This document shows, in pieces, positions 1,301 through 12,902 of a DNA stretch of 32,302 nt (position 1 is the first letter of the stretch; every line of letters begins with the position of its first letter). The stretch is from a virus, in the IMG/VR virus record IMGVR_UViG_3300046007_007846, positions 1 to 32,302 of that record; one strand, given 5' to 3'. A program made the position numbers and the translations under genes. A model generated the notes under the pieces. That model worked only from the letters and a program-made list of their open reading frames with translations. It searched no databases and had not been told where the DNA came from.

Positions 1301-1693
1301 ATGGTTGATCCCGAAAAACACCGCAAGTTGATTGACTTTGCCTATGCGAAGTGTCTTGAGATTCCTCGCAGGAAGAAGCATTGCAGCATCATCCTGCACA
1401 AGAACCGAATCCTTGCCGTTGGCGTAAATCGTTTCAAGACGCATCCGCTTGCCGTCAAGCACGGCTACCTCTTCGGTGAGGTGCATTCCGAACTTGATGC
1501 TTTCCTGAAGTGCAACAGGCGCGAGGGGCTTGAACTATGGAACTTTCGTTTCAATAGCCATGGACAGATGCGTATCTCGCGTCCTTGTCCTAAGTGTATG
1601 CCATGGTGCGTGAAGTGCTTCGACAAGATCTACTACACGATGGACGATGGCATCCATGAGTTCGAAGTAGGAATCGCGGATCTCAGGCCTTAG
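1301..1693 (+). CDS. Compact cytidine/dCMP deaminase-like zinc protein
   Basis: The 130-residue product carries the zinc-deaminase signature. The HSE motif gives H62 (zinc ligand) and E64 (proton shuttle), and PCPKC gives C96 and C99. Hydrophobic strands around residues 28-42 (CSIILHKNRILAVGVN) match the core of this fold. The family hydrolyses the amino group of cytosine-containing nucleosides or nucleotides. In T4-like phages the best-known member, dCMP deaminase, supplies dUMP for thymidylate synthesis. This copy is shorter than T4 Cd (193 residues) and lies among tail genes instead of nucleotide-metabolism genes. Further cysteines (C103, C106) follow the motif. The substrate is not determined. 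The ribosome-binding site is weak. The TAG stop interlocks with the convergent tape-measure stop. Confidence 0.75.
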   Translation: MVDPEKHRKLIDFAYAKCLEIPRRKKHCSIILHKNRILAVGVNRFKTHPLAVKHGYLFGEVHSELDAFLKCNRREGLELWNFRFNSHGQMRISRPCPKCMPWCVKCFDKIYYTMDDGIHEFEVGIADLRP

Positions 1694-3390
1694 AAGGCAA
1701 GACCCATCCTGAACGCCCTTTCGTCCAAGTCCGCACCAGTTCTCGTTGTCGTGAGTGAAGACATCCATGAGGTGCTGTTGTTGTTCGTCACCACCGTATT
1801 TGTGGTTGGTGCGGCCACCGTCACGGGTGTTGGTATGGACTTCAACATAGAATTTTCGGTTTGTAGCGTGGACATCGTTGCTGCCGAAGATGGCATCGTG
1901 GCAGGGACTGCGGCAGCATTCATCTGCAAGTTCTGTTGTTGACCGATTCCAGCCTGAGAACCATACACATCGCTGGTTTTCATTGTCTGATTCGATGATT
2001 CGGAAGATGTTGTGTTTCCTGTATTGGGAGCAGTTCCTTCTGCTCCGATATTCTCCATCTTCTCGTCCACCTTGATCAAACTTCCGATACCAGGAATACC
2101 AGAGAATAGATCATAAACCATTTCACCACCGAGTTTTTCGGTTAGCCATGCACCCAATGCTCCTGGTCCGATTCCAAGGGCATCAAGCAGCCCTGTGACT
2201 GCGACACCCGCACCACCGCTCAATATCGCTGCAACTCCACCACCGAGCAAGGAACCGATCATGCGGCCAAGTTCGATTCCTATTTGCTTCTTCTTCTCTT
2301 GTGGCGATAGTGTTGGATCTTTCTTTATATTCGATATGTTCCATGAAGCAAAGATGCCAGTGAGAAGCGGTCCTAATGCTGCGAATGCAACCTTAGCCAA
2401 TGGAGTGATTGCGGTTTTTAGTGCCACTCCCCCCAAGTTTTTCAGACCAGTCAATGCCTGACCACCATATTTTGTCACTCCAGAAGCGACACCAGATGCA
2501 GCACCCCTTACTGCTTTGAAAGCACTGCTTCCGATGTTCTTCATCCCACCCCATGCTCTACTCAACCACGACCCACCTGGTTTCGACGCTGCCGATGCAC
2601 CAGGAAGAGATGGTGGTTTTCGTGTGACAGAAGCACCAGGAAGTGGTGGTGGTTTTGGCGACCTCATGCCGCCTCTGCCTCTCCTCAAATCTGCAACATC
2701 GTCCAGTATGCTAAGAGAATCCGCTAATGTGGAAAGCCAACCACCGCCCTTTTGTTGTTCGGTTGTCTTTTCTTTTCCACCAATACCTTCGCTAGCAAAG
2801 TATTTTGCAAAAAGAGTTTCGAAGAAGGAATGGTCTTTTTCTTGCAAATTCTCCTGAAGTTTTTCATTCTCTCTTTTTTGCTCGTCCATTTTTTCTTCGA
2901 CGGCGAGAGAATTCGAAGCGGGTGTCGTACCACTCTCTGGCGCAAGTTCGTAGGGTGTGGTTGATTCAGTTGGGACAATCATCGATTTGGTTATCGATGT
3001 CTTTGCTATTTCTTTTATTCTTTTAGCGGATGGCCCGAATTGTGTCGTCAATATGTCGAGTATTTCATCGACCGAATCCCTAAGATCCCCCATGACTCCG
3101 TAAGAGCGTCTTCTCGCATCCCTTTCCTGAAGTTCCTCTTGTGTGAGTTTTCTACCAGTTGTAACATCCCTACCCTGTTTTTCGTATAGTTCTCTGCGCT
3201 TGAACTCTGCCCTTTCAGCAAGAATACCACCACCAAGCACTTTAGGCACTCTTGAAAAGAATCCTTGCTGTGCGCTTAGAAATCCAGCCTTGAGTCCAGT
3301 TTGCACTGCTTCGGCAAGGTCATAGTTTTCCCTTGCGTTCATTGCGGGAGCGTTTTGTGGGATTGCTGCTGATGGATTTGGTAGTGGCAT
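1690..3390 (-). CDS. Probable tail tape-measure / tail length protein (gp29-like)
   Basis: The product has 566 residues. The N-terminal part (about 1-190) is charged and probably helical. A linker of about 190-290 contains two proline-rich PxxLPGAS repeats. The centre (about 290-420) is rich in Gly and Ala with hydrophobic stretches near 325-350 and 375-415. The C-terminal part is Asn/Gln/Thr-rich (TNTVVTNNNSTSW). This pattern is typical of tape-measure proteins. Its length is close to T4 gp29 (about 590 residues), the hub-associated tape measure. It follows gp26 and gp51 directly on the same strand, where a tape measure would lie if those two are tail chaperones. I see no similarity strong enough to prove gp29. 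Role and name are inferred from composition, length and position; another hub protein is the alternative. Confidence 0.6.
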   Translation of the reverse strand: MPLPNPSAAIPQNAPAMNARENYDLAEAVQTGLKAGFLSAQQGFFSRVPKVLGGGILAERAEFKRRELYEKQGRDVTTGRKLTQEELQERDARRRSYGVMGDLRDSVDEILDILTTQFGPSAKRIKEIAKTSITKSMIVPTESTTPYELAPESGTTPASNSLAVEEKMDEQKRENEKLQENLQEKDHSFFETLFAKYFASEGIGGKEKTTEQQKGGGWLSTLADSLSILDDVADLRRGRGGMRSPKPPPLPGASVTRKPPSLPGASAASKPGGSWLSRAWGGMKNIGSSAFKAVRGAASGVASGVTKYGGQALTGLKNLGGVALKTAITPLAKVAFAALGPLLTGIFASWNISNIKKDPTLSPQEKKKQIGIELGRMIGSLLGGGVAAILSGGAGVAVTGLLDALGIGPGALGAWLTEKLGGEMVYDLFSGIPGIGSLIKVDEKMENIGAEGTAPNTGNTTSSESSNQTMKTSDVYGSQAGIGQQQNLQMNAAAVPATMPSSAATMSTLQTENSMLKSIPTPVTVAAPTTNTVVTNNNSTSWMSSLTTTRTGADLDERAFRMGLAF

Positions 3391-3393
3391 TTA

Positions 3394-3585
3394 TCAGGCT
3401 CTTTGCTGTGCCTGTTGCTGTTTCAGGCGTTCATTTTCATCCTTTATAAATTTCACCAGCATGTTTACATATACTTCTCTCTCCCACGGCATCATGTTTT
3501 CCAACTCTGTCAACGAATACTTATGGTGTTGCAGCAATGCAAAATTGGTGTTGTACATGTTTGCAAGGCTATCGTGACAGAGCAT
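3394..3585 (-). CDS. 51: Baseplate hub assembly protein gp51-like (tail-chaperone part)
   Basis: The 63-residue product contains HKYSLTELENMMPWEREVYV followed by a charged helix and a Gln-rich tail. This is the pattern I associate with the short gp51 proteins of environmental T4-like phages. T4 gp51 is longer (249 residues) and is called a hub assembly catalyst because it is not found in the virion. The ATG at 3585 overlaps the gp26 stop (TAATG) and has no clear ribosome-binding site. Translation therefore depends either on reinitiation after gp26 or on a -1 frameshift from gp26. The frame is open well upstream of the ATG (to 3648), which permits a fusion. The spacing to the next gene is only 3 bases. 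Confidence 0.65.
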   Translation of the reverse strand: MLCHDSLANMYNTNFALLQHHKYSLTELENMMPWEREVYVNMLVKFIKDENERLKQQQAQQRA

Positions 3586-4286
3586 TATGTAAAAAAATCT
3601 TGAAGTCCCGTGAACGATGCTACAAACTCGTTTTCGCAAGAACGACACTTACATGCGACATCTTTCTTCAGTACGGGTATATTGAGATAGAACTTCCCGA
3701 TCAACTCAAACTGGCTGCTTGTCATGGACTCGACAAACTTATGAATTTCCTCTGAAGAAAAGTCCTTTCTTGTATAGACGTTTTCTTCATCAAACACCGT
3801 TTCAATGGAGGAGATCACATAGTTGAGGACTTCCTCTACCGTCATTTCCTTCATGTTTGGTCTTGCGTCCATGATGCATGGATATCGTATCGTTATTCCG
3901 ACCTTATCCGTTAGCATTATCTTGTTTGATACGCTTTCAGGGAATTGAACTTCCAACTCGTCAAGATTCACGGTCAAATCGTTTGACTTTTGGCAGTTTG
4001 GGCATTTTGTCTTCAGGTCTATCAATTCACCGACAGACTTTGCCCGTACCTTCGCGAAAAGATATTCAATGTCGAACAGGGGCATCTTTTCGGGATGCTC
4101 CACCCCATCCACACACGCGCGTATCAGATTGCACATGGCGGATATCATTTGTGGTTCATCTTGGCTTTCAAGTGCCATGTATAGAACCTTTTGCTCTTTG
4201 ACTAGGAAAGGTCTAAAGGTGGTTTCTTTTTTTGTTGATGGTATCGTTATTTTGTATTTCGGTATTCCCAGCGTTGGTAAAGACAT
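3585..4286 (-). CDS. 26: Baseplate hub protein gp26 (T4_baseplate family)
   Basis: The 233-residue product matches the gp26 family: an N-terminal IPKYKITIPSTKK region, a central IRACVDGVEHPEKMPLFDIE stretch, a zinc-ribbon-like CPNC (C95, C98) and a second Cys cluster near the end (C212, C214, C217). T4 gp26 is about 208 residues and is needed for assembly of the central baseplate hub. The Cys pairs are well placed to bind one metal ion. The start at 4286 is supported by GGAG 7 bases upstream. The gene ends in a TAATG overlap with gp51 just after a seven-T run. Position before gp51 and the tape-measure candidate suggests that it acts as a tail-assembly chaperone; that role is inference. Confidence 0.85.
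   Translation of the reverse strand: MSLPTLGIPKYKITIPSTKKETTFRPFLVKEQKVLYMALESQDEPQMISAMCNLIRACVDGVEHPEKMPLFDIEYLFAKVRAKSVGELIDLKTKCPNCQKSNDLTVNLDELEVQFPESVSNKIMLTDKVGITIRYPCIMDARPNMKEMTVEEVLNYVISSIETVFDEENVYTRKDFSSEEIHKFVESMTSSQFELIGKFYLNIPVLKKDVACKCRSCENEFVASFTGLQDFFT
3591..3597 (-). other. Candidate -1 ribosomal frameshift site, gp26 to gp51
   Basis: On the minus strand seven T residues occur as GA-TTTTTTT-ACATAATG. In the gp26 frame they read GAT TTT TTT ACA TAA, giving the ideal X-XXY-YYZ heptamer T-TTT-TTT. After a -1 slip the reading becomes TTT TTT TAC ATA ATG and continues through gp51. The product would be gp26 residues 1-232, then Tyr-Ile, then all 63 residues of gp51 (about 297 residues). 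The stop in the original frame follows 5 bases after the heptamer. I see no strong downstream stem, only a weak TGCAAA/TTTGCA pairing. This is inferred from sequence alone. Confidence 0.6.
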
Positions 4287-4319: not shown

Positions 4320-5246
4320 TCATTGCTGACCAAAAATTTCCTGTCGAAGATCTCCGATTCTCTGAGAACCTCTATCCTCCCGTATCCTGTGTATTTCTAG
4401 AGCATTCGATACCGATGCATTTATCTTCGACTGAACGGTGCTTGTCGCTTCGGTTTCACCCCTATCCTTGCGAATATTGTATGGAAAAGATCTCTTTCCA
4501 ATGACTTGATACTCGGAATATGATAGGGTGACATTGATGGTTTCTATCTGATCGGTTGAATCGGTTGATAGTTCTATATCGGAAATAGACTTACAGAAAA
4601 CATTGTACAACTCCGTGCAGTAGACTTTGAGATCACTTTTGTCGAGTTGATAGATTCGTACATTCGTCATGTATGAGTCTGGATAAAGCAGATCTGCGGT
4701 CATGGGTGAATATACCGAACCCATCCAACCTTCAAAGAAATCTCTTTCGAAGAAGTCTTCTCCGACCCTGAAAGTCATCTGAATCTCGTTTGAATAGTTA
4801 GACTCGTATGCATACTCGACTGGTGGGCCATAAATCTTGAGAGGTTGTGTCTGCAATGCTCTGCCTGGTATTGATGTACTTTGGCAGTTTCTGACAAGCC
4901 TTTCATTCTGCGGCCAACCAAGACCTTCTATTTCAAAGTAGAATCGTGTCGGTCTAGCATAGTAGTTCATTCCGACAATGTGTGCCATCTGTTTACTGAT
5001 GCTGCTAGTCAGCGCATCTCTATACTTTATTCCTCCAGTTTCATTTTCCAGATCGCTGTAGAACTTTGCGATTCTTGCATTTGTTCGTGCTATCTGTGAC
5101 TCTATGGAGTTGAATAGAGGATTTACTGGTTCTGTGGAACTACCACGTAAACCAAGATCTTCCAATGCTTGTTGCGTATTTGTGGCCGCAAGATCTACTG
5201 GTATGTTATATGGGGTTGGGTAGTTTGTTCCTTGAAACTGCGTCAT
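4320..5246 (-). CDS. 54: Baseplate tail-tube initiator gp54
   Basis: The 308-residue protein is close in length to T4 gp54 (320). The centre shows the fold shared by gp19-type tube proteins: FYFEIEGLGWPQNERLVRN, then CQSTSIPGRALQTQPLKIYG, then EIQMTFRVGEDFFERDFFEG and a conserved FEGWMGSVYSP. In T4, gp54 sits on the hub with gp48 and forms the platform on which gp19 polymerises. The gp54 rather than gp19 assignment rests on the greater length, the helical N-terminal extension (residues 1-80) and the hub-gene context. AAAGG within the preceding stop region serves as ribosome-binding site 3 bases after the previous gene. Confidence 0.8.
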   Translation of the reverse strand: MTQFQGTNYPTPYNIPVDLAATNTQQALEDLGLRGSSTEPVNPLFNSIESQIARTNARIAKFYSDLENETGGIKYRDALTSSISKQMAHIVGMNYYARPTRFYFEIEGLGWPQNERLVRNCQSTSIPGRALQTQPLKIYGPPVEYAYESNYSNEIQMTFRVGEDFFERDFFEGWMGSVYSPMTADLLYPDSYMTNVRIYQLDKSDLKVYCTELYNVFCKSISDIELSTDSTDQIETINVTLSYSEYQVIGKRSFPYNIRKDRGETEATSTVQSKINASVSNALEIHRIREDRGSQRIGDLRQEIFGQQ

Positions 5247-11996: not shown

Positions 11997-12902
11997 ATGA
12001 GTTCTTATCAAAACATCTTTGCGAGTTCAAATTGCAGCGTCATCTCTGGTCTTATACCACCAGGAGTTAAGAAGTTTGTCAATTCGTTTATGAGCGGAAA
12101 CTTGCTACAAAATCCTCTTTCTATTGTCCTTTCCACTTTTGGAGAGCAAATAGGCGGATTTATGGGAAAATTGAATGAAATCGAAGATCTCGACAATAAT
12201 CTCAAAGAACTGAACGAGAAACTGGACAAAGTAAACGATAAGTTACAAAAGTTTCAAAATCATACTGATATTTTGAGTGGTGTGATTCGCAATCCAAATC
12301 AGGCTTATGCCACTTTGGATCAAATTCTTGGAGTCATGTCTGCATACAACTCAATGAAGGATGTGTTGAAAGATCCAGGCGCGCAACTTGAGGACAATTT
12401 TTCACAAGCATTCTCATCTCTAAATCCAAGAATAGTTGGACCATTCTTTGAAAACTTTGCCGAAAATATGGCAGAAATAGAAAGACTACTGAATGAGGTT
12501 TCCTATCAGGTTGATGCAAGCGGAAATAAAGAACTGATAGCGACGGCCAGCGTTCTAAATGAACTCGGAAAACTTGCGGGGAATATAGGAGATGCGTCTG
12601 AAAGCATTCAGGGGTTCATAGATGGCGACGAAGCAGCATATATTGCCGCTGCCGCTGCATTGGCCGATTACGCTCTTGCCAACGGTTTGGTGGCAAGTTT
12701 GCTATCGGATCCTTGTTTTGGTGGGCAAGTTGTAATGAACATGATAAGCAGTACTCAAGGTAGAGATGCCTTGGTCGATGTTGCTTCGGAAAATGGGATA
12801 AATGTACCCAATGGTCCCGTTGATTTTTCGAGGATCGTTGGGAAGGCAAGACCGATGCAAGGCTTTGGTGGGGATATCGGATCTATCAGCATAGACTCTT
12901 AA
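11997..12902 (+). CDS. Hypothetical structural protein with coiled coil (301 aa)
   Basis: The protein is mostly helical. Residues of about 58-95 form a strong coiled coil (MGKLNEIEDLDNNLKELNEK and on). A second helical stretch runs around 145-175 (FFENFAENMAEIERLLNEVS). An Ala-rich helix (AAYIAAAAALADYALANGLV) follows near residue 220. The C-terminus has Gly and Pro residues. No transmembrane helix or enzyme motif is evident. It follows the PAAR gene after one base and sits between spike and wedge genes, so a hub or baseplate role is likely, possibly corresponding to an unassigned hub component such as gp28. I do not recognise a family. Confidence 0.65.
   Translation: MSSYQNIFASSNCSVISGLIPPGVKKFVNSFMSGNLLQNPLSIVLSTFGEQIGGFMGKLNEIEDLDNNLKELNEKLDKVNDKLQKFQNHTDILSGVIRNPNQAYATLDQILGVMSAYNSMKDVLKDPGAQLEDNFSQAFSSLNPRIVGPFFENFAENMAEIERLLNEVSYQVDASGNKELIATASVLNELGKLAGNIGDASESIQGFIDGDEAAYIAAAAALADYALANGLVASLLSDPCFGGQVVMNMISSTQGRDALVDVASENGINVPNGPVDFSRIVGKARPMQGFGGDIGSISIDS

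Follow-up and report, generated by a model that had tools for sequence, protein, structure and literature searches.

In phage lambda, a -1 shift close to where the short-form gene ends, associated with the slippery heptamer G GGA AAG, yields a long form that has the same N-terminal domain. According to a 2016 review (PMC5009743), the two proteins, gpG and gpGT, both chaperone the tape measure and are absent from the virion, and G-T frameshifting is conserved among long-tailed phages 'except T4'. For T4-like phages, the identification of the tail-assembly chaperone genes is attributed to Vladimirov, Gautam and Davidson (2022) by two citing papers, of which the PRFect paper (PMC10885494) credits them with a two-gene solution of short form plus fusion in 'some T4-like phages' and the other (PMC12846349) with slippery signals of the poly-T type in TAC-N genes of T4-like phages. 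As cited there, both the reading of T4-like phages as having a short and a long chaperone and the poly-T signal had apparently been reported in 2022. In the Vandenendeviridae/Andersonviridae (phage Adele), the TAC locus ahead of the tape-measure gene has a -1 frameshift that is conserved and a T-rich motif (PMC12846349); it belongs to other phage families, has a GTTTTT motif, and is likened here by its published description.

The window, which refers to the whole stretch of 32,302 nt analysed here (IMG/VR record IMGVR_UViG_3300046007_007846, positions 1 to 32,302), derives from an uncultured T4-like phage. Its gp26 frame runs on the minus strand from an ATG at 4286 and ends with CAA GAT TTT TTT ACA TAA (Table 1). 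The first-pass annotation had noticed a slippery T-TTT-TTT at this end, and the heptamer is indeed in frame, but only 3 bases before the stop instead of the five that were given. It had also described gp51 as lying in the -1 frame and open upstream to 3648, which agrees with the frame observed from 3648 to the stop at 3394. The proposal that a frameshift generates tail chaperones here is not new, as PMC10885494 and PMC12846349 both cite Vladimirov et al. (2022) for it, and on the word of these citing papers the window is a further case of a known kind. The present analysis adds depth on the conservation, the stimulators and the switch in T4, with the window phage as a well-supported further member.

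Table 1. Features of the gp26-gp51 locus, in window coordinates
Feature	Position	Strand	Basis
Tail-tube-like gene directly upstream of gp26	4320..5246	-	phrog_45 tail tube, 2.3e-39
gp26 reading frame, 233 aa, proposed short form (TAC-N)	3585..4286	-	PF12322, phrog_150, model
Weak Shine-Dalgarno-like ACGGGA 5' of the heptamer, candidate stimulator	3606..3611	-	position fits the G-rich energy minimum of 42 lineages
Slippery heptamer T TTT TTT in the gp26 frame	3591..3597	-	sequence; T TTT TTN in 271/271 junctions
gp26 stop TAA, one codon (ACA, 3 bases) past the heptamer	3585..3587	-	sequence
-1 frame coding region after the shift (Y-I-M-L-C-H-D-S-L...), C-terminal domain of the proposed long form (TAC-NC)	3394..3591	-	phrog_634; domain shared with the T4 gp51 C-terminus
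gp51 ATG in overlap with the gp26 stop (TAATG), where reinitiation could provide another start	3583..3585	-	sequence; 8/42 lineages
Predicted downstream RNA stem, candidate stimulator	3504..3583	-	z -3.2 vs 200 shuffles
566-aa gene directly downstream of gp51, candidate tape-measure protein	1690..3390	-	position

The gp26-gp51 junction very probably represents a programmed -1 ribosomal frameshift that yields a TAC-N/TAC-NC chaperone pair, a reading founded at the sequence level on the site, the conservation of phase and heptamer, the frequent absence of a gp51 start, the chaperone-like fold and the full-length fusion in T4. Most ribosomes would terminate at the TAA to give gp26, and a minority would slip back one base at T TTT TTT, where both tRNA-Phe could re-pair perfectly, and continue into gp51 to give a gp26-gp51 fusion. 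The fusion is predicted to have 297 residues (232 + YI + 63), in line with the length first estimated. The short and long forms would constitute a tail-assembly chaperone pair like lambda gpG/gpGT. The N-terminal part common to both would serve to coat the tape measure, and the C-terminal extension would bring in tail-tube or hub subunits; slippage in the cell, its efficiency and these binding roles are what we infer from the locus. The locus differs from that of lambda in its T TTT TTN site, in signs of both upstream and downstream stimulators, and in a shorter C-terminal domain (about 65 aa). In E. coli, U UUU UUU is reportedly less shifty than A AAA AAG (PMC5009743).

Relatives of the locus were gathered from phage records and viral contigs, mostly via gp26 protein similarity and partly via gp51 similarity, with the viral contigs queried with single proteins and the T run used as no criterion. 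Junctions were called by a gp26 HMM and a gp51 HMM on all plus-strand ORFs, and the latter, seeded with the -1 frame peptides of 12 relatives, could score matches in any frame. In total, 271 junctions bore both genes with gp51 in the -1 phase, and the sole junction outside this set (L026) has a gp51 that is a full-length fusion. T TTT TTN stands in the gp26 frame within the overlap at every one of the 271. Grouping gp26 at 60% identity reduced them to 42 lineages, so that the alignment across T4-like phages suggested beforehand turned out in favour of the frameshift, with heptamer and -1 phase kept in 42/42. The codon-usage probability of a T followed by TTT as the first Phe codon in all 42 is ~1e-22 when the lineages are treated as independent, and only 3/119 control Phe-Phe pairs elsewhere in the same loci fit the heptamer. 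The second codon of the heptamer varies (23 TTC, 17 TTT, one TTG and one TTA among the lineages), as expected for X XXY YYZ. T TTT TTC is kept in Stenotrophomonas Yut2, Vibrio F86, Otagovirus Astolliot and Vibrio Bakedbeans, and the predicted junction peptide of S-PM2 reads ...SFFRISMFYNNLENYYR. Runs of seven T are not enriched in the window (6 observed vs 13.7 expected), so the T run alone proves nothing and the strength of the argument comes from the relatives, which offer, with their 42 lineages, a natural test of what such a site has to retain.

An uninterrupted run of T could also deceive RNA polymerase, and the long form would then stem from transcriptional slippage rather than from the ribosome. 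Although 17/42 lineages, the window phage included, do have a run of 7-8 T, the run extends uninterrupted over only 6 T in 230/271 loci (25/42 lineages), mostly because position 7 of the heptamer is C, which makes this origin extremely unlikely. The strict in-frame register and the downstream structure fit slippage by the ribosome instead.

The start codons of gp51 bear on a second alternative, namely that gp51 is a separate small protein produced by termination-reinitiation at the TAATG, with the T run incidental. The overlap of the gp51 ATG with the gp26 stop, put forward in the first-pass annotation, is real in the window, whereas among the relatives it is not conserved and occurs in only 8/42 lineages. 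An ATG at any point from the site to the conserved gp51 core occurs in 15/42, and ATG, GTG or TTG in 24/42; reinitiation cannot explain the remaining 18/42, in which none of the three is present. In three loci (L240, L259 and L214), gp26 runs on to a stop 24 nt past the site, within conserved gp51 sequence. In C48C1, neither ATG nor GTG nor TTG occurs close to where the gp51 domain starts. As had been stated earlier for the window, no Shine-Dalgarno sequence stands at normal spacing before its gp51 ATG. The conservation of the -1 frame extends 5' of this ATG, and adding that extension raises the phrog_634 score from 99.6 to 106.3 bits (2.6e-28 to 2.3e-30). Two Vibrio records, 207E48.1 and D503, have TAATG without the heptamer, as reinitiation would have it, but across the 42 lineages the heptamer is invariant and the start codon is not, and in T4 a single gene encodes the fused protein. 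Judged by these alignments, conservation holds for the frame where the start codon varies, and reinitiation as the general route to gp51 is improbable, with perhaps a little more in its favour than slippage of the polymerase. Since the window does have TAATG, some free gp51 could arise by reinitiation there.

Signals that might stimulate the programmed frameshift were sought on both sides of the heptamer. Over the 42 lineages, the anti-Shine-Dalgarno energy reaches a minimum 11-18 nt 5' of the heptamer (Stouffer Z -4.7 vs synonymous shuffles), with a small effect per lineage (mean z -0.73); the motif in the window is weak, and much of the overall signal follows from a conserved Gly codon. Folding of the 90 nt past the site gave a mean z of -1.76 (sem 0.24), compared with -0.09 to -0.90 at eight control offsets. 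The predicted stem of the window begins 7 nt past the heptamer and has its z of -3.2 over 98 nt, with only -0.28 for a 60-nt window. The outer arms of this stem stay the same in L002, L004 and L005 and disappear in L008, hence covariation gives the stem no support. A single conserved RNA structure was ruled out, as the stems vary between lineages and the window arms are without covariation.

Both domains of the predicted fusion are homologous in sequence to the T4 gp26/gp51 family (PF12322, phrog_150, phrog_634). The window gp26 matches PF12322 (T4_baseplate) at 1.9e-54 and phrog_150 at 3.2e-59, and its gp51 matches phrog_634 together with the C-terminal end of the phrog_150 profile, the latter because phrog_150 includes some full-length fusions, T4 gp51 among them. 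A gp26 model was built with AlphaFold2 on a 35-sequence alignment (pLDDT 88), and the top PDB matches of its residues 1-94 in VIA-align were HK97 gp13 (Z 8.1), YqbN (7.4) and RBSTP2171 (7.1), middling scores over about 83 residues, with rank 4 falling to 4.5. All three proteins are described as tail-assembly chaperones (PMC9603447). Foldseek alone gave a non-significant result on the same model (2ob9, E 0.9), and a search of the gp26 sequence against the PDB returned no match. A tail-assembly chaperone fold for the N-terminal domain of gp26 is supported by the predicted model, and the chaperone reading is further supported by T4 gp51 containing both gp26 and gp51 domains, and fits the gene position between a tail-tube-like gene and a candidate tape-measure gene. 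The view of the locus as the T4-like counterpart of the lambda chaperones, expressed in the first-pass annotation, stands in these respects, while T4 itself has two genes and no frameshift.

The neighbours of gp26/gp51 in the window are a tail-tube-like gene upstream and, downstream, the 566-aa gene in the tape-measure position, which has no sequence family match. A long ORF lies downstream of gp51 in 244/271 loci, and its proteins are too divergent to be linked by sequence. Tape-measure homology of the 566-aa gene was rejected, as an iterated HMM gathered only seven sequences including the query and reached neither T4 gp29 nor annotated tape measures; the candidate role of this gene is thus one suggested by position. 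Elsewhere in the window, a 301-aa protein (11997-12902, plus strand), away from this candidate, gave a weak tape-measure family match (phrog_3981, 9.7e-4). A 130-aa ORF at 1301-1693 (plus strand), convergent to the minus-strand tail genes, gave a dCMP-deaminase-like match (phrog_174, 9e-6).

The T4 proteins are homologous to those of the window, but the arrangement in T4, the two-gene form of the Straboviridae, is different, with gp26 and gp51 encoded by separate genes on opposite strands. On the 282 positions of phrog_150, T4 gp51 covers 13-280, the gp51 domain included, and T4 gp26 only 14-235. The gp51 HMM matches residues 207-243 of T4 gp51 (1.2e-9) and no gp26 above noise. By this domain coverage, the complete fusion corresponds to T4 gp51 and the short form to T4 gp26, and T4 does without a frameshift; the "gp51" of the window is only the C-terminal domain of T4's gp51. 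The difference in size of gene 51 between T4 (249 aa) and cyanophages (about 60 aa) is thereby explained. T4 gp26 retains the Phe-Phe pair as TTC TTT, and the heptamer is present in 0/6 two-gene lineages.

In a tree of the N-terminal domain, six Straboviridae lineages have their short and long genes placed together (99/97), each set in one piece, and separate from every frameshift phage, the Straboviridae genera Schizotequatrovirus and Ishigurovirus included. The window phage groups with the frameshift form, and its 32-kb fragment holds one gp26 match only. The two T4 genes apparently go back to one duplication, as read from this tree, whose root and long branches are uncertain. It is rather probable that the T TTT TTN frameshift, assisted as in dnaX by a motif resembling a Shine-Dalgarno sequence and by a stem downstream, is ancestral in T4-like phages, and that one Straboviridae sublineage swapped it once for the duplication, after which the site decayed to leave T4 genes 26 and 51. 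If so, a tree can locate the switch, and what it did to the short/long ratio becomes testable. Among the T4-like phages, conservation of the junction points to T4 as the derived exception and not the rule. In RB43 (L287:2501-3794), both forms are on one strand, with the long form (gp51) immediately followed by the short form (gp26), and the T4 pair is divergent.

The heptamer is absent and the -1 phase kept in four Ackermannviridae or Ackermann-like records (CBA120, Croc_ER14, 207E48.1 and D503). A canonical slip was looked for in Kuttervirus CBA120 and not found. In CBA120 (L017 ~2301-2470) and Klebsiella phage Croc_ER14 (L294 ~2298-2465), no ATG, GTG or TTG precedes the conserved part; the gp51-like domain follows in the -1 frame right after gp26, at the near-identical junction GAG ATT TTC ATT TAA TTTTTGAAATTGATTTA. 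Some phage records have gp51 wrongly annotated or missing, and a joined CDS is needed. The annotated gp51 of C48C1 (L012:2283-2387) is a 105-nt CDS that begins inside the domain, and gp51 of S-BM3 (L014:1547-1731) is unannotated; both should be entered as joined CDS features.
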